Positions 11,649-33,217 of a stretch of DNA of 33,217 nt are shown piece after piece (position 1 is the first letter of the stretch; each line of letters starts with the position of its first letter). Source of the DNA: Hyphomicrobiales bacterium (GTDB lineage: Bacteria; Pseudomonadota; Alphaproteobacteria; Rhizobiales; JAJFHC01); NCBI GenBank assembly GCA_021775835.1, contig JAJFHC010000234.1, forward strand, positions 1 to 33,217. Reading direction: 5' to 3'. Made by a program: the position numbers and the translations under genes. The notes beneath the pieces are model-generated. The model did not search any database. It was not told the origin of the DNA and saw nothing but the letters and a program-made list of their open reading frames with translations.

Positions 11649-12908
11649 ATGGGGATTGACTTCAGCGACGTCGGGCAAAAACAGCTTTCGAGCGGTGCGC
11701 ATCGCGTCTGTCCGGCGCGCGAGACCCTCGACCGTATCCTGCCGATCAAGCACAAATTCGGCATCACCCGCGTCGCCAATGTGACCGGCCTTGACCGGAT
11801 CGGTCTGCCGGTGGTGCTGGCGACACGGCCGAATTCCCGGTCGGTGGCGGTCTCCCAGGGCAAGGGCATGACCCTCGATCACGCCAAGGCGTCCGCCGTC
11901 ATGGAAGCGCTGGAGATCTGGCATGCCGAACAGTTCGACGGGCCGCTCCATTATGCCTGTTACGGCGATATCGCCGGCCGTCACGAGATCATCGACATCA
12001 ACCGGTTGCCGGATATCGTCGACAGCCGCTTCACCGAGACACGGCGCTTGATGTGGGTTCAGGCCAGCGACCTGATCAGCGGGCGAAACATGCTTGTGCC
12101 GTTCGAAATGGTGCACGCCGACTACACCCGCCCGGTTCAACCGGGCCATGGTTGTTTCCCCGCCAGCACCAATGGCCTGTCGTCGGGCAACCACATCCTG
12201 GAGGCCGTCTGTCACGGCATCTGCGAGGTCATCGAACGCGATGCCCTGGCCGTCTGGCACCACGAAGCGCCAGGCCACCGGGCATCGCGCCGGCTCGATC
12301 CGGCGTCTGTCGATGATGAGTTCTGCGGGGACGCCCTGGCAAAGTTCGATTCCGCCGGCCTTGAATGCGGCGTCTGGGATATCACCACCGATGTGGGCGT
12401 CGCCTCGTATCTCTGCATCATCAGGGAAACCGGTGCCGCCGCCGGCCATCTGGGACTGGGGTCGGGCAGTCATCCCGACCGCGCTGTCGCCCTGCGCCGG
12501 GCGCTTACCGAAGCCGCCCAGACCAGGGTCAATTACATCACCGGGTCCCGCGACGATCTGGCCATGGCCGAATTCATGCCCGAAGGCATGGCGGCGAAGG
12601 GCGCGGCGGTCGACGATCTGTTCGCCTCGCACGCCACGCCTTGGCGGTTCGACCGGTCGCCCGGCGAGGTCAACGATACCCTGAAGGCGGACCTCGACGG
12701 GCTGCTTGCGCGGTTGCAGGCCGTGGGCATCGACCAGGTCGGCGTCGTCGACCTGACCCGGGCCGACCATGGCATCCCGGTTGTCCGGGTCATCATCCCG
12801 GGTCTCGAAGCTCCACATGACGACATCACCTATCTCGCCGGCCCCAGGGCACTGGCCGCAGCCGCGAGGGCCGGCCAGAGCACCGGATCGGGGGAGGCGG
12901 CCCCATGA
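11649..12908 (+). CDS. YcaO-domain ATP-dependent peptide-backbone-modifying enzyme
   Basis: A 419-residue YcaO protein, first gene of the candidate RiPP operon. YcaO enzymes use ATP to phosphorylate a backbone amide oxygen and so drive cyclodehydration, amidine formation or, with TfuA, thioamidation. ATP and magnesium motifs are in the expected order: SAVMEALEIWHAE (Glu 86, 89), ICEVIERDA (Glu 193, 196) and RRALTEAAQTR (Arg 284, Glu 288, Gln 291). The C-terminus lacks the Pro-rich PxPxP end of azoline-forming YcaO proteins and there is no fused or nearby E1/ocin-ThiF-like partner or dehydrogenase, which argues for the TfuA-dependent thioamide branch. ATG at 11649 follows tagggtaggg. It overlaps tfuA by four bases (ATGA), implying coupling. 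The family is certain; the substrate is inferred from context. Confidence 0.93.
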   Translation: MGIDFSDVGQKQLSSGAHRVCPARETLDRILPIKHKFGITRVANVTGLDRIGLPVVLATRPNSRSVAVSQGKGMTLDHAKASAVMEALEIWHAEQFDGPLHYACYGDIAGRHEIIDINRLPDIVDSRFTETRRLMWVQASDLISGRNMLVPFEMVHADYTRPVQPGHGCFPASTNGLSSGNHILEAVCHGICEVIERDALAVWHHEAPGHRASRRLDPASVDDEFCGDALAKFDSAGLECGVWDITTDVGVASYLCIIRETGAAAGHLGLGSGSHPDRAVALRRALTEAAQTRVNYITGSRDDLAMAEFMPEGMAAKGAAVDDLFASHATPWRFDRSPGEVNDTLKADLDGLLARLQAVGIDQVGVVDLTRADHGIPVVRVIIPGLEAPHDDITYLAGPRALAAAARAGQSTGSGEAAP

Positions 12909-13741
12909 TCGTTTTTGCAGGACCCTCTCTCGGCGGCGAAGATCTTTCCGCCTTCGATGCCGTCACGGTGCGCCCGCCCGCAAAACAAGGCGACCTCTAT
13001 CTGGCGACCCTTGAGCACCCGCGCGCCATCGGCATTGTCGACGGGTACTTCGAAGGCGTGCCGTCGGTCTGGCACAAGGAGGTCCTGTGGGCGCTGACCC
13101 GGGGCATCACGGTTCTGGGTGCGGCCAGCATGGGCGCGTTGCGCGCCGCCGAGCTCGACACCTACGGCATGATCGGGGTCGGCGCGGTCTACCGGTCCTA
13201 CCGGGACGGTGACATTGAAGACGACGATGAGGTCGCCCTCCTGCACGGGCCGGAAGAAATCGGCTACCTGGGCTTGAGCGAAGCCATGGTCAATGTCCGC
13301 GCGACCTGTGCCGCCGCCGGGCAGGCCGGCGTCCTGTCTCACGAACAGTGTTCTGGCATTGTCGCCGCCGCCAAGGAGATCTTCTACAAGAACCGCACCT
13401 GGGAAGCGATCCTGGACACAGCACACGCAGGCCTGTTGAGCAGGGAAGAACGCCAGTCCGTTGCCGGCTGGATCGCCAGCAACGCCGTCGACCAGAAGAA
13501 ACTGGACGCCCTGGCGCTGTTGGCCCGGATGCAGGACGGCGACTTTACAGGATCAAGCGAGGGCGACGTTCGCGATTTCAGGTTCGAGAACACAAGCCTT
13601 TGGCAAAGCAGCGTCAAGTCCTGGCGTCAGGCCGCTGGACCCGAGGATACGCCTGCAGCGCTAGCTGATGAAATGGGCTATCGCCTTGTTAGCGATGAAC
13701 ATTTATATTGGCGTAGCGAAGATGACGACGGTAAACCGTAA
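12905..13741 (+). CDS. tfuA: TfuA-like protein, YcaO partner
   Basis: A 278-residue TfuA-like protein. The conserved core is easy to see: start VFAGPSLGG, then IVDGYFEGVPSVWHKEVLWA (about residues 43-62), GAASMGALRAAELDTYGM (about 72-89) and DDDEVALLHGPEE (about 107-119). TfuA was named from the trifolitoxin locus. TfuA-YcaO pairs thioamidate a glycine of methyl-coenzyme M reductase in methanogens and the backbone of thiovarsolins in Streptomyces, TfuA being thought to deliver sulfur or recruit the sulfur donor. The C-terminal part (from about 190) is divergent and ends in a charged tail. The start is coupled to ycaO by ATGA. It is 41 bases from the next gene. I am confident in the family; that it acts on the downstream repeat protein is inference. 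Confidence 0.93.
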   Translation: MIVFAGPSLGGEDLSAFDAVTVRPPAKQGDLYLATLEHPRAIGIVDGYFEGVPSVWHKEVLWALTRGITVLGAASMGALRAAELDTYGMIGVGAVYRSYRDGDIEDDDEVALLHGPEEIGYLGLSEAMVNVRATCAAAGQAGVLSHEQCSGIVAAAKEIFYKNRTWEAILDTAHAGLLSREERQSVAGWIASNAVDQKKLDALALLARMQDGDFTGSSEGDVRDFRFENTSLWQSSVKSWRQAAGPEDTPAALADEMGYRLVSDEHLYWRSEDDDGKP

Positions 13742-13782
13742 CCCCGGCGAATTCCGGTAATTCAAGAAAGTCCGCTGAGCCC

Positions 13783-15048
13783 ATGGAAGGCACCCGTTTC
13801 AAGCTGTTCCCGCAGCCGCGCTTTCTGGATGATTTCCAGGAGCCGGAATCGGTGCTGGTATCGTCGCCGGCCGGCAGCTTGTCTCCCGGCCCGGCCGACA
13901 ACCGCATGTATACAGTCTACCCCGTCGACAAACCCCGGCCCTATGGCATCGCTCCGGGACCGGGCGACCGCTCCGGGGCGCTCGTGCCGCCCTGGCGGGG
14001 GGCATGCCACCCGCCGGCAATGCCCGACCAGGATGGTCATTTCGATCATCTTGAGCCTGGCACACGGGAGTTCGAGGCAGCCCACCTGTTCGGCACAGTC
14101 CGGTTTGTCCTCGACATCTGGGAGGACTATTTCGGCAGGCGCATTCCCTGGCACAGCGAAAAACATTTTGACCGTCTGGAACTGACCATCCAGCCGACCC
14201 TGGAGAATGCCTATTCAGGCTATGGCTTCCTGGAGATGGGCGGCGACCGCCAGCACGGGCGCTACAAACCTTTCAGCCTGAACTTCGATGTCATCGCCCA
14301 TGAGGTCGGGCACGCCATCATCTATTCCGAGGTCGGCGTTCCTGATCCCAACGGGGCGACCGGCGAGTATTACGGCTTCCACGAAAGCGCCGCCGATCTC
14401 GTGGCGCTGCTGTCCTCGCTGCATTTCAATTCCCTGGTCGACCACCTGCTCCGGAACACCCACGGCAATCTCTATGTGCTCAATTCGGTCAACCGGATGG
14501 CGGAACTATCGGGCAACAAGCAGATCCGCATTGCCGCCAACGACGTCAGGCTGTCGAAATTCGCCCGTGGCTGGGTCAAGGAACACAAGCTGTCGCAGCC
14601 CCTGACCGGCGCCTTCTTCGATATCCTGGTCGACATCTTTCACGAATGCCTGCTCGACTATGGCGCCATCGACCCTCATGTGGAGGACCTGTCCGACAAG
14701 TTGCTGGCGACCCCGGACTATGAGCCCGTGATGCAGGATCTGTTCGACGAGGCGTTTGCCGGACACCCTGACGGCTTCAAGCTGGCGCTGATCGACGCCC
14801 GCGATATCTTAGGCACCTACCTTGCCGACACCTGGCAACAGCTCGACCGCAACGACCTCAACTTTGTCGATGTGGCGCGCGCTTTCGAAGCGGTGGATAT
14901 CGAACATACCGGCGGCCGGTTCGGCCGGTTGATCCGAGGCAACTTCGACCTTCGCGACATCGGTTCTGTCCGGGTCGGACCACAGCTTGAACCGCTCAAG
15001 GCGGACAGCCACGCCAATTCCGTGCGCACTCTGGTTCCTCTGGACTGA
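13783..15048 (+). CDS. Thermolysin-like (gluzincin) zinc metallopeptidase, cytoplasmic
   Basis: A 421-residue protein with the zinc-peptidase motif DVIAHEVGHAIIYSE (His 173, Glu 174, His 177) followed 24 residues later by FHESAADLVALL (Glu 201, Asp 205). HExxH then ExxxD is the thermolysin-type gluzincin arrangement (M4/M36 clan), although spacing from the motif to the third ligand is a few residues longer than in thermolysin. Unlike secreted M4 enzymes it has neither signal peptide nor propeptide; a Pro-rich N-terminal stretch of about 85 residues precedes the domain. It is located between tfuA and the repeat-protein gene on the same strand, so I infer it is the maturation protease removing the leader or cutting between repeats. 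It could instead protect the host by degrading product. Confidence 0.85.
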   Translation: MEGTRFKLFPQPRFLDDFQEPESVLVSSPAGSLSPGPADNRMYTVYPVDKPRPYGIAPGPGDRSGALVPPWRGACHPPAMPDQDGHFDHLEPGTREFEAAHLFGTVRFVLDIWEDYFGRRIPWHSEKHFDRLELTIQPTLENAYSGYGFLEMGGDRQHGRYKPFSLNFDVIAHEVGHAIIYSEVGVPDPNGATGEYYGFHESAADLVALLSSLHFNSLVDHLLRNTHGNLYVLNSVNRMAELSGNKQIRIAANDVRLSKFARGWVKEHKLSQPLTGAFFDILVDIFHECLLDYGAIDPHVEDLSDKLLATPDYEPVMQDLFDEAFAGHPDGFKLALIDARDILGTYLADTWQQLDRNDLNFVDVARAFEAVDIEHTGGRFGRLIRGNFDLRDIGSVRVGPQLEPLKADSHANSVRTLVPLD

Positions 15049-15131
15049 ACGGCACCGATAAGGCTATGATAATGCAGAAGCAACAGACAAGGGCCGAGCG
15101 GATTTCCGGCCGGAGAATGGGGAACGTCTAA

Positions 15132-15710
15132 ATGCCAGAAACACTCCTGAGCGCATCCAGCATAACGTTGTTCGGGCGCGTTGTTGAAGACATCAACATT
15201 GTTCCCGACGACTCGAACAAGTCGCACCACCCGTCGGAAGCGCCCGCAGAAGGCGAGAAACCGGAAATTCAGCGCCAGCTTACCCATGGCAGCGGCCTTG
15301 AGGACTCCTCGGCGCGGCTCGCCCGGATCTATGGCTTCAGCTATGAAGGCGCCTATTTCGAAATGGCCGGTGCAACCCTTTTTCTGGTCCATGGCCCCGG
15401 CGTCGAGTCCTCCGACATCAAGGTTCCCGGACCAAACCGCCGCGACGAGCAATTTTACAGCGAACTGAAGGCCTGGGCCTACGACCGTACCAACCAGACC
15501 ATGCGCCTCGATGTGGATTCCGGATCGTTCGAACAGGTTCTGTTGAGCACTGTCGGCGATGGCGGCGATGTGTCGGGTGCCAGAGTGTCCGGCGCCCGCG
15601 TGGCCGGCGCGAGGGTCTCAGGCGCCAGGGTTTCTGGCGCAAGGGTGTCCGGCGCCCGTGTCTCAGGCGCCCGAGTATCCGGTGCCCGTATCAGCGGTGC
15701 CGACGACTAG
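15132..15710 (+). CDS. Repeat-bearing candidate RiPP precursor (leader plus VSGAR repeats)
   Basis: A 192-residue protein in two parts. Residues 1-145 include a polar, low-complexity segment (about 22-52) and a compact domain (about 55-145) with RIYGFSYEGAYFEMAGATLF and LKAWAYDRTNQTMRLDVDSG. Residues 147-192 are eight consecutive VSGAR units (one is VAGAR) plus a final ISGADD. There is no signal peptide and no Cys. Being the last gene after ycaO, tfuA and a peptidase, it is the natural substrate candidate: long leader, modular core, as in thiovarsolin-type precursors with multiple core repeats. Alternative: the register A-R-V-S-G resembles the A(D/N)LxG pentapeptide-repeat beta-helix, so a pentapeptide-repeat label is likely by automated annotation, but nine units are short for that fold and the central residue is Val. 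ATG at 15132 follows atggggaacg. Confidence 0.8.
   Translation: MPETLLSASSITLFGRVVEDINIVPDDSNKSHHPSEAPAEGEKPEIQRQLTHGSGLEDSSARLARIYGFSYEGAYFEMAGATLFLVHGPGVESSDIKVPGPNRRDEQFYSELKAWAYDRTNQTMRLDVDSGSFEQVLLSTVGDGGDVSGARVSGARVAGARVSGARVSGARVSGARVSGARVSGARISGADD
15570..15707 (+). repeat. Tandem 15-base coding repeat (VSGAR x8 plus ISGAD)
   Basis: Nine in-frame 15-base units encode VSGAR, VSGAR, VAGAR, then five VSGAR, then ISGAD followed by a last Asp. The peptide is almost invariant but the codons are not: Val uses GTG, GTC, GTT and GTA; Ser uses TCG, TCC, TCA, TCT and AGC; Arg uses AGA, CGC, AGG, CGT and CGA. So the amino-acid unit has been kept while the DNA diverged, which points to selection on the peptide rather than recent slippage. 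Confidence 0.95.
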
Positions 15711-15756
15711 GACGGGATGAGGAAAAGTGTGTGCGGTTTTCCGCCCGCATCCCGTT
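15711..15756 (+). terminator. Strong stem-loop right after the repeat-protein stop codon
   Basis: gacgggatg (15711-15719) pairs with catcccgtt (15748-15756) over nine positions, one of them G-U, and an inner gcgg-tttt-ccgc hairpin sits at 15733-15744. The structure starts at the base after the TAG. It lacks a U-run, so it is either a 3'-end stabiliser or an imperfect terminator of the YcaO operon. Confidence 0.45.
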
Positions 15757-15817
15757 CCAAACAGACCCTAGTACGGCTCACAAAATTTATGACGCCGTGA
15801 GACTACCGGCGTTAACG

Positions 15818-16060
15818 GGCTGACTCTCGCATGACGTACCGGCAAGTTGCGCCTGCCGTTATCAGCTTGTCCACCGGTCTTTCGACCGGTATCAACCCAG
15901 CACTGGTTGGTTAGGCCAACCGCTCCAAAGGAAGCGATGCTTCTCCTGGCTTTCCAACCGGTTTGGGCTGCGCGGCCCAAGGCGGCCGGTCCTTCCAGAA
16001 GCCACTAAGGCTTGCGGCCTTCGCGGCCCCATGTTCCCAGAAAGGGCATGGGTTTAAGCG
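15818..16060. ncRNA. Candidate structured RNA: chain of seven hairpins
   Basis: This stretch contains no believable protein gene but consecutive perfect or near-perfect stems: cggca/tgccg (15840-15858), accggtc-tttc-gaccggt (15873-15890), ggttgg/ccaacc (15905-15921), gaagc-gat-gcttc (15931-15943), ttgggc/gcccaa (15963-15980) enclosed by accgg/ccggt (15957-15990), aaggc/gcctt (16007-16021) and cccatg/catggg (16028-16052). Such density suggests a folded RNA or a palindromic repeat cluster. I do not recognise tmRNA, RNase P, 6S or a known riboswitch on either strand, and the strand is undecided. About 495 bases (15711-16205) lie between the flanking genes. Confidence 0.45.
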
Positions 16061-26690: not shown

Positions 26691-26889
26691 CTAAAGCCCC
26701 GCCCGCCTGAGCCCCTCGACAAAGTGCCGCACGTCGTCCTCGAACTTGTCCGGCTGGACCGCCGCCCAGTGGTCGATGTCGAAGTTGGGGTGGGCTGCGA
26801 GCACCCTGGCGGCTTCCGCCCGGGCCTCGGTCTCGCGGCCCAGGTGGCCGTAGCTGGCGGCCAGGATACGCCGGCCCTCCGTCGGGTTC
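26691..26889 (-). pseudogene. 3' fragment of a cyclase/TPR gene (duplicate of 32707 end)
   Basis: The minus strand encodes NPTEGRRILAASYGHLGRET, then the HPNFDIDHWAAVQPDKF stretch, ending VEGLRRAGL and TAG. It is almost identical to the C-terminus of the TPR protein at the window's right edge. Homology stops sharply at 26889, where sequence of another gene begins. It has no start or TPR body of its own, so it is a transposed or recombined gene tail rather than a gene. Confidence 0.75.
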
Positions 26890-32706: not shown

Positions 32707-33217
32707 CTAAAGCCCCGCCCGCCTAAGCCCCTCGACAAAGTGCTGCACATCTTCTTCATACTTGTCCGGCTGGACGGCGGCCCAGTGATCGATGTCGAAG
32801 TTGGGGTGGGCTGCGAGCACCCTGGCGGCTTCCACCCGGGCCTCGGTCTCGCGGCCCAGGTGGCCGTAGCTGGCGGCCAGGATGCGCCGGCCCTCGGTCG
32901 GGTTCTGCATGGTCTGGATCGCGCGCACCGCCTCTTCATACTGCTTCAGGTTGAAGTAAGCCCCGCCCAGGTGCCAGATATACTGGTCGGGATAAAACGG
33001 GTTGAGACGCATGGCCTTCTGCAGCAGTTCGATGGCCTCTTCCGACCGGCCCGAGTGCGCCAGCGCATCGGCCATATCGGACATCAGGTCGGCATCGTTG
33101 GGGTTGAGCTTGATCGCGCGCTCATAGGCGCTGATCGCCGGCTCGTGCTCCTTGCGGTAGAGGTGGGCAAAACCCAGTTCGCCGAACCCCCGGGCATCGG
33201 ATTCATCCAGATCGATG
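32707..33217 (-). CDS. TPR-repeat protein, C-terminal part (probable class III cyclase/TPR protein), cut by window end
   Basis: Minus-strand frame open from the window edge to TAG at 32707-32709, about 169 residues. It contains at least three TPR units: ISAYERAIKLNPNDADLMSD, EEAIELLQKAMRLNPFYPDQ and QYEEAVRAIQTMQNPTEGRR, then a tail HPNFDIDHWAAVQPDKYEED ending VEGLRRAGL. This tail is typical of rhizobial proteins with an N-terminal adenylate cyclase domain, an ATPase-like middle and C-terminal TPRs; that N-terminal part would lie beyond 33217, so the cyclase identity is inference. A tail fragment of the same gene type is duplicated at 26691-26889. Confidence 0.85.
   Translation of the reverse strand, partial: IDLDESDARGFGELGFAHLYRKEHEPAISAYERAIKLNPNDADLMSDMADALAHSGRSEEAIELLQKAMRLNPFYPDQYIWHLGGAYFNLKQYEEAVRAIQTMQNPTEGRRILAASYGHLGRETEARVEAARVLAAHPNFDIDHWAAVQPDKYEEDVQHFVEGLRRAGL

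Follow-up and report, generated by a model that had tools for sequence, protein, structure and literature searches.

What might a bacterial operon do in which genes for a YcaO-family protein and a TfuA-like protein stand beside genes for a metallopeptidase and for a cysteine-free protein ending in short tandem repeats? The question is raised by a contig from a Hyphomicrobiales bacterium (JAJFHC010000234.1, assembly GCA_021775835.1), whose positions 1 to 33,217, the whole stretch of DNA analysed, are called the window. A single plus-strand operon carries the four genes: YcaO (11649-12908), TfuA (12905-13741), a peptidase with HExxH and ExxxD motifs (13783-15048) and the repeat protein, a putative precursor (15132-15710). 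A first-pass annotation took the repeats for a modular core, thioamidated by YcaO-TfuA and released by the peptidase.

The reading that is favoured here, if only somewhat, is a peptidase-processed multi-core peptide module coupled to cyclic AMP or cyclic GMP signalling, usually but not always with YcaO-TfuA. It starts from direct observations, namely gene content, synteny, precursor architecture, selection on the repeats and linkage to a class III nucleotide cyclase. The peptidase and the precursor are the constant pair, usually accompanied by the cyclase and nearly always by YcaO-TfuA. Relative to the first-pass annotation, the cyclase partner, the Rhizobium plasmids that lack YcaO-TfuA and the pentapeptide-repeat labels carried by relatives in public databases are new.

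The operon and its relatives

The open reading frame (ORF) coordinates agree with the annotated run of four consecutive genes, the first two of which share 4 bases (12905-12908). The identities given to the YcaO (419 residues; Pfam PF02624, 271.6 bits) and the TfuA (278 residues; PF07812, 159.9 bits) are sound, both scores being far above cut-off. For each protein the best NCBIfam model is one of McrA-glycine thioamidation: TIGR03266 for YcaO (231.8 bits, below the cut-off of 365) and NF033432 for TfuA (214.8 bits, below 235.2). The two genes are thus an adjacent pair of the thioamide type, though the best models score below their equivalog cut-offs. By sequence, the nearest solved structures are the Methanocaldococcus MJ1094 YcaO (6pe3, E 2e-29) and the TfuA 6xp8 (E 2e-36). 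The Glu, Arg and Gln positions that we take to be the ATP site of YcaO align with those of 6pe3.

The third gene encodes a gluzincin-like (M4/M36-like) metallopeptidase of 421 residues. Its HEVGH and ExxxD motif residues are invariant in 34 of 34 aligned sequences (alignment A1), giving an HExxH motif with the third ligand, Glu, in ExxxD, as in M4/M36 enzymes. The annotated motif therefore stands; the lack of a signal peptide was judged by eye. No curated family model, M4/M36 models included, scores above cut-off (Pfam Peptidase_M4 reaches 15.1 bits against 22.4), and the sequence has 0 matches among PDB sequences at E<=1. The structure model has a mean predicted local distance difference test (pLDDT) value of only 55. 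M36 proteases and thermolysin rank first among its PDB matches, with E values of 0.18 and above and none at E<=0.001; from so poor a model the fold can be assigned only tentatively. The protein database holds 1967 relatives of the peptidase, of which the best 120 were listed. A role as phage cargo was rejected, as the peptidase has 0 matches in a phage collection (a viral-contig collection lay outside this search).

A genome scan with the peptidase alignment yielded 55 loci; as two peptide patterns were used to draw them, the sample is biased. The four genes keep their synteny here: YcaO is found in 52 of the 55 loci, TfuA in 53 and a relative of the precursor in 52 (43 by profile and 9, the distant L045-L053, by inspection of the ORF that follows the peptidase). 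Two loci, L036 and L041, lack YcaO, and L036 also lacks TfuA; the contig starts just upstream. The precursor is missing from L035 and L037, which stop at a contig edge, and from L055, a Chloroflexi peptidase that is 31% identical and has no partners. The hosts of the 55 loci are Hyphomicrobiales/Rhizobiaceae, Roseobacter, Rhodospirillales-type organisms and some gammaproteobacteria. In one locus (L030:1173-4004) YcaO and TfuA form one ORF, and the precursor, with a non-repetitive tail, lies 1.7 kb past the peptidase.

Of 385 alphaproteobacterial genomes sampled, 9 have the peptidase (in G194 the match is weak and partial) and 21 have TfuA, with 25 TfuA matches in all. All 8 strong peptidase genes adjoin TfuA, and the precursor is present at all 7 peptidase loci whose contig continues (six by profile, G009 by eye). 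The first-pass annotation had held that a YcaO-TfuA pair occurring consistently without the repeat protein or the peptidase would speak against the system, and this is in part what is found: 17 of the 25 TfuA matches lie in loci that have the YcaO-TfuA pair but, at the thresholds used, neither peptidase nor precursor. These look like other precursor classes. Among 394 Rhizobiaceae genomes, searched with the R. etli peptidase, the peptidase is found in 52 and TfuA in 122; when the lists were compared by hand, TfuA lay within 3 kb of the peptidase in 50 of the 52. Of the two exceptions, G489 is cut by a contig end and G439 is without TfuA.

Pairwise distances correlate best, among six gene pairs, for peptidase and precursor (rho 0.91; 0.84 for YcaO-precursor and 0.57 for TfuA-precursor), in 42 of the 55 loci with tails included and with partial, fused or irregular loci and those lacking a curated precursor left out; all these values are inflated by shared ancestry.

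The repeat protein and its tail

The putative precursor has 192 residues and, as annotated, no cysteine. Neither it nor the relatives scanned have a Pfam or NCBIfam match above cut-off in their domain. AlphaFold2, run from 121 sequences, predicts a folded leader-like domain at residues 1-143 (15132-15560), with 10-residue block means of 70-97 over residues 1-140. No PDB fold matches this model at E<=0.001. The tail, a putative multi-core region, carries eight 5-residue units in tandem (15570-15689). They had been described as eight VSGAR units, of which seven are VSGAR and the third is VAGAR; ISGADD follows. At residues 147-177 pLDDT is below 50 and the model has no secondary structure, so that the tail is predicted to be disordered. 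In some relatives (P0199, P0213, P0221, P0224 and P0232) an insert of ~100 residues lies in a variable loop before an ARIYGF motif. The insert may resemble phage tail-associated domains, but Pfam found nothing in the four scanned (P0199, P0213, P0221, P0232).

Relatives of the repeat protein number 287 in the protein database, the best 120 of which were listed, and at least 162 by profile search. The unit is near-uniform inside one protein and differs among proteins and species. Units of five residues include VSGAR, VSGSR, VSGAK, SVRGA, GGGKV and MNARG; those of six include AYSGGK, SRAAMA, SRMAMA, SRGKMA and DLVGRS; those of seven include SGQRVRA, SGAHARI and SGANARV; and a unit of four, MNVG, is also found. 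Precursors of the Mesorhizobium/Rhizobium type and those of L030, L090 and L092 have no repeat. The leader domain remains alignable while tail types vary. With the gene linked to YcaO-TfuA, the repeats thus have the look and behaviour of a core that varies while the leader stays constant; the modular core that had been proposed is borne out as far as a folded leader-like domain and a variable multi-unit tail go.

Selection on the repeats can be read from the units of single proteins. In the window array the synonymous difference between units (pS) is 0.69 and the non-synonymous difference (pN) 0.067. Arrays could be measured in 42 of 49 precursors (there are none in the other 7, one of which, L040, is cut by a contig end), and pS exceeds pN in all 42, with medians of 0.68 and 0.088. 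As arrays were chosen by amino-acid similarity, the low pN is partly built in; the high pS is an independent fact. Since pS is high and the amino-acid difference small, the units are old and have been kept alike by selection. An origin of the repeats by recent slippage was rejected, synonymous positions being highly diverged between units.

A structural tail, forming a pentapeptide-repeat beta-helix while YcaO-TfuA modify something else, is very improbable. It would account for the names that NCBI gives to several relatives (pentapeptide repeat-containing) and for the period of 5 in all of the best 120 of the 287 relatives. The Pfam Pentapeptide model also gives a sub-threshold match (18 against 20.2 bits), and the A2 profile aligns in its tail with designed proteins made of pentapeptide repeats (5dn0, E 5e-12), a match that stands opposed to the rest of the evidence. 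Homologues with the same domain, however, have units of 4, 6 or 7 residues or none, which would be unfit for such a helix, so the period is not fixed at 5, and the variation of the unit between species argues strongly against it. In pentapeptide repeats one position is typically Asn or Asp; that position is mostly Arg or Lys here. The beta-helix was rejected on the changes of period, with the predicted disorder as weaker support, because repeats are hard to model.

Is the tail then the substrate of YcaO-TfuA? Precursors L041, L045 and L047 have additional sequence ahead of the repeats, and it carries the motif R[GA][ASP]DGxLY. When all ORFs of at least 50 residues in the 55 loci and in 20 further sampled loci (L090-L109) were scanned, the motif was found in 8 only: these three precursors and five ORFs beside YcaO-TfuA pairs that lack the peptidase (L096, L098, L099, L101 and L102), those of L096 and L098 being repetitive. 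By analogy, this sharing argues that the repeat protein may be a YcaO-TfuA substrate. The two repetitive ORFs (L096:10928-11344 and L098:10300-11253, both on the minus strand) are precursor-like, with R[GA]PDGxLY near the start and, in L096, units of 15 residues. They sit between a class III cyclase and the YcaO-TfuA pair in alphaproteobacteria and are, judged by sequence, a putative sister multi-core class without the peptidase.

The same motif bears on another explanation, in which YcaO-TfuA would place the thioamide in the folded domain, the peptidase or the cyclase, as the McrA pair modifies a protein, and the tail would serve as a basic anchor or for binding. For both YcaO and TfuA the best model belongs to the protein-modifying McrA pair, most tail units hold basic residues (the SSGASL units of L039 are without any), tail types change while the domain stays alignable, and the repeats are kept in genome G439, which has neither YcaO nor TfuA. 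Against this, the position of the motif points to the tail as substrate: in three precursors it comes before the repeats, and in ORFs next to other pairs (two of these ORFs are repetitive) it lies close to the start. The repeat-less precursors of the Mesorhizobium type and of L030 are compatible with both views. Modification of a folded protein is considered decidedly unlikely.

The cyclase partner and the proposed mechanism

Clustering of neighbouring genes gave one dominant partner, present in 42 loci, which is a class III nucleotide cyclase. Where Pfam was run, its domains are PF00211 with TPR (~590-620 residues) or PF00211 with AAA_16 (~1000-1130 residues), and the PF00211 score exceeds the cut-off in the cyclase genes next to the L005, L010, L043 and L046 operons. 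Profile searches place a cyclase no more than ~1 kb away at 42 of the 47 loci that could be evaluated; of the remaining eight, seven run into a contig end within 1 kb and L055 is without the core. The cyclase is convergent and downstream in 28 of these 42, downstream on the same strand in 4 and upstream in 9, and in L045 it overlaps the YcaO ORF from upstream. With the longest ORF taken, cyclase and YcaO share 4 bases in 7 loci (L046, L048-L053). Ten host genomes (~56 Mb) hold 162 PF00211 matches, 3 to 36 domains each, from which chance proximity is put at ~2% by our own arithmetic, with no phylogenetic correction. In the 385-genome sample a cyclase accompanies 6 of the 7 evaluable peptidase loci, G242 being the exception. 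Class III cyclases also lie within ~1.2 kb at 7 of the 17 peptidase-less YcaO-TfuA loci (L096, L097, L098, L099, L101, L102 and L109), which suggests a wider association of YcaO-TfuA with cyclases that may be general in Alphaproteobacteria.

We infer a mechanism in which the tail is the substrate. The folded N-terminal domain of the precursor would be recognised by the enzymes, and the disordered tail would supply several copies of a short core. YcaO and TfuA would most likely convert one backbone amide per repeat to a thioamide, at the Gly of S-G-A-R if McrA is the better analogy or at the Ala-Arg amide if thiovarsolin is. Cleavage by the metallopeptidase would follow, probably in the cytoplasm. 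Either the resulting product or the state of the precursor may be coupled to the adjoining class III adenylate/guanylate cyclase with its TPR or AAA-type domains, and the cyclase would be the receiver or the output. Because a cyclase usually stands beside the operon, the output is likely a change in cyclic AMP or cyclic GMP, not a secreted antibiotic.

Several observations weigh against this reading, among them those on loci that lack YcaO-TfuA. The peptidase turned up in 125 plasmid records, of which Rhizobium accounts for 115, and 14 of the Rhizobium regions were fetched. Seven of these (L116-L119, L125-L127), with a peptidase of 36-41% identity, have the order cyclase-YcaO-TfuA-peptidase-precursor. 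The other seven (L114, L115, L120-L124), of 51-52% identity and including p42c of R. etli CFN 42, have cyclase-peptidase-precursor, with precursors that end in SRSGG-type units. In the 15-19 kb fetched of each, 7 of 7 gave no YcaO or TfuA match. Among 25 evenly spread plasmid records, 10 belong to the 51-52% class and 14 to the 36-41% class. The genes of the form without YcaO-TfuA are under purifying selection (median pN/pS in the 7 regions: peptidase 0.13, precursor 0.29, cyclase 0.12). In the R. etli/leguminosarum plasmids a small ORF of ~110 residues follows the precursor (L114:8974-9312, L115:8958-9290).

The whole genome G439, whose completeness is not known, likewise has no YcaO and no TfuA match. 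It has the cyclase-peptidase-precursor arrangement of the R. leguminosarum/etli-type plasmids, with RSSGG units kept. In G242 the TfuA, peptidase and precursor (MNVG units) stand together with no cyclase close by, and the sole YcaO match is on another contig. The pair is therefore not always present with precursor and peptidase: the expectation that the peptidase always occurs with YcaO-TfuA was dropped on account of the Rhizobium plasmids, and a YcaO beside every TfuA-peptidase locus on account of G242. The Rhizobium forms count against any model that needs a thioamide; thioamidation is apparently not needed everywhere.

Other points on the same side concern the tail and the cyclase. Units of some clades (SRMAMA, SRAAMA) are without Gly, so a single thioglycine rule does not fit. 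The R[GA][ASP]DGxLY pattern was written after the sequences were seen; it is absent from L110-L113, and the branch to which the window belongs (P0121-P0292) lacks even a looser form. An exporter, sulfur donor or cleavage motif common to the loci was not found. There is no cyclase near L001 (the closest relative), L014, L022, L027 or L041, and in the window the cyclase relative is 17 kb from the operon. Cyclase linkage, finally, does not prove a signalling role.

These points also bear on the possibility of a natural-product cluster, in which the repeats are thioamidated, released as short Arg peptides and exported to act on other cells, while the cyclase merely regulates. In the available text on thiovarsolins (PMC6511847), repeated cores become N-acetylated APR tripeptides with the thioamide between Pro and Arg. 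The best YcaO and TfuA models are thioamide-forming, a cluster of GNAT acetyltransferases is represented in 19 of the 55 loci (confirmed by Pfam in L005 and L010, both of those scanned), and the sparse distribution of the peptidase noted above also fits. In L045 a gene for an ABC transporter membrane protein (L045:12196-14736) lies directly 3' of the precursor and is a possible dedicated exporter. Neighbour-gene clustering, however, found no exporter common to most loci; the only widely shared transport-like neighbour, which looks by eye like an ABC ATPase, lies 3-6 kb upstream and occurs in 11 loci. Peptidase, precursor and cyclase, moreover, persist where YcaO-TfuA is absent. The lack of a commonly shared exporter fits an intracellular role without proving it. 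A secreted product of this kind is judged unlikely, though it deserves to be kept in mind.

A narrower version of the signalling reading can be put forward only tentatively: a multi-copy peptide would be freed from a folded carrier, or remodelled, by the metallopeptidase, the peptide would be the ligand of the class III cyclase, and thioamidation would add stability as a layer that is common but can be dispensed with, the R. leguminosarum/etli-type form lacking it. Anti-phage defence was also considered and rejected, as PADLOC gave no match for the four operon proteins at E<=0.001.

The window operon itself has no adjoining cyclase. At the contig end the minus strand (32710-33216) encodes the C-terminal 169 residues of a TPR-type class III cyclase relative (tblastn, 83% identity to residues 423-591 of the L005 cyclase), cut by the window end so that its catalytic domain is not visible. 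A second minus-strand stretch of 65 residues (26694-26888) resembles the same C-terminus (77% identity to residues 527-591). The two pieces suggest duplication or breakage by rearrangement. As the operon lacks an adjoining cyclase, a relative lies at the contig end and the nearest relative, L001, is likewise without one, the window is probably a rearranged version. A stretch of 45-49 bases just 3' of the operon (15713-15761) has copies of 91-96% identity at two L001 sites, one just past the L001 operon and the other 8.5 kb further; it may be a dispersed element, possibly involved in rearrangement. A separate class III cyclase, of membrane type from its hydrophobic N-terminal half as seen by eye, is encoded at 248-1558 on the plus strand and is 56% identical to L005:14609-15946. 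The latter is 2.7 kb from the L005 operon, and L006 has a similar gene at 14601-15932.

Comparison with known systems

The module may be an unrecognised bacterial signalling system. With a family this large, the leader domain and a peptidase without a curated model would widen the known range of YcaO-TfuA, and the Rhizobium form that lacks the pair is a natural control for the role of thioamidation. To our knowledge the class III cyclase receptor family of alphaproteobacteria is poorly understood; the tight cyclase linkage suggests ligands for this expanded family.

No account of this module was recognised in the literature, where coverage of subscription journals was partial and absence is not proved. 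The available text of a survey of bacterial TfuA clusters counts 2,326 unique ones, over 500 of them in Rhizobium (PMC8120280), and some of these may be the present module. Its main text (supplements were outside the check) has no word starting with 'repeat', 'cyclase', 'protease' or 'metallo', and its single 'peptidase' is Peptidase S9. The genes of ATP-grasp branch 6 loci, which are centred on graspetide ATP-grasp enzymes, are stated to include YcaO, TfuA and adenylate cyclases; in the portion of that paper available, these loci show no comparable peptidase or precursor (PMC8939145). There is also a likeness to Pycsar, in that two neighbouring cyclases, those of L005 and L046, match PycC models of PADLOC through the catalytic domain. 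The operon proteins themselves differ in having no match, and no Pycsar effector gene was noticed, none having been searched for.

Another comparison is with the thiovarsolins. According to the available text of the paper on them (PMC6511847), the var cluster of Streptomyces varsoviensis encodes a repeating precursor processed via YcaO-TfuA, with acetylation ascribed to the host, so the precedent for repeated cores on which the first-pass annotation drew is real. Shared features are the YcaO-TfuA pair, Arg in the core, next to which the thioamide lies in thiovarsolins, and variation among related precursors, which there have none to five repeats. Unlike the present operon with its peptidase, the thiovarsolin cluster is described there as being without a specific protease, and it has heme oxygenase-like, ATP-grasp, MFS and amidinotransferase genes; the word 'cyclase' does not occur in the text of that paper. 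The McrA thioglycine system provides the best curated models for both window proteins. It differs from the operon described here, which scores below its equivalog cut-offs and in which the YcaO-TfuA pair is accompanied by a peptidase and a precursor, and usually by a cyclase as well.

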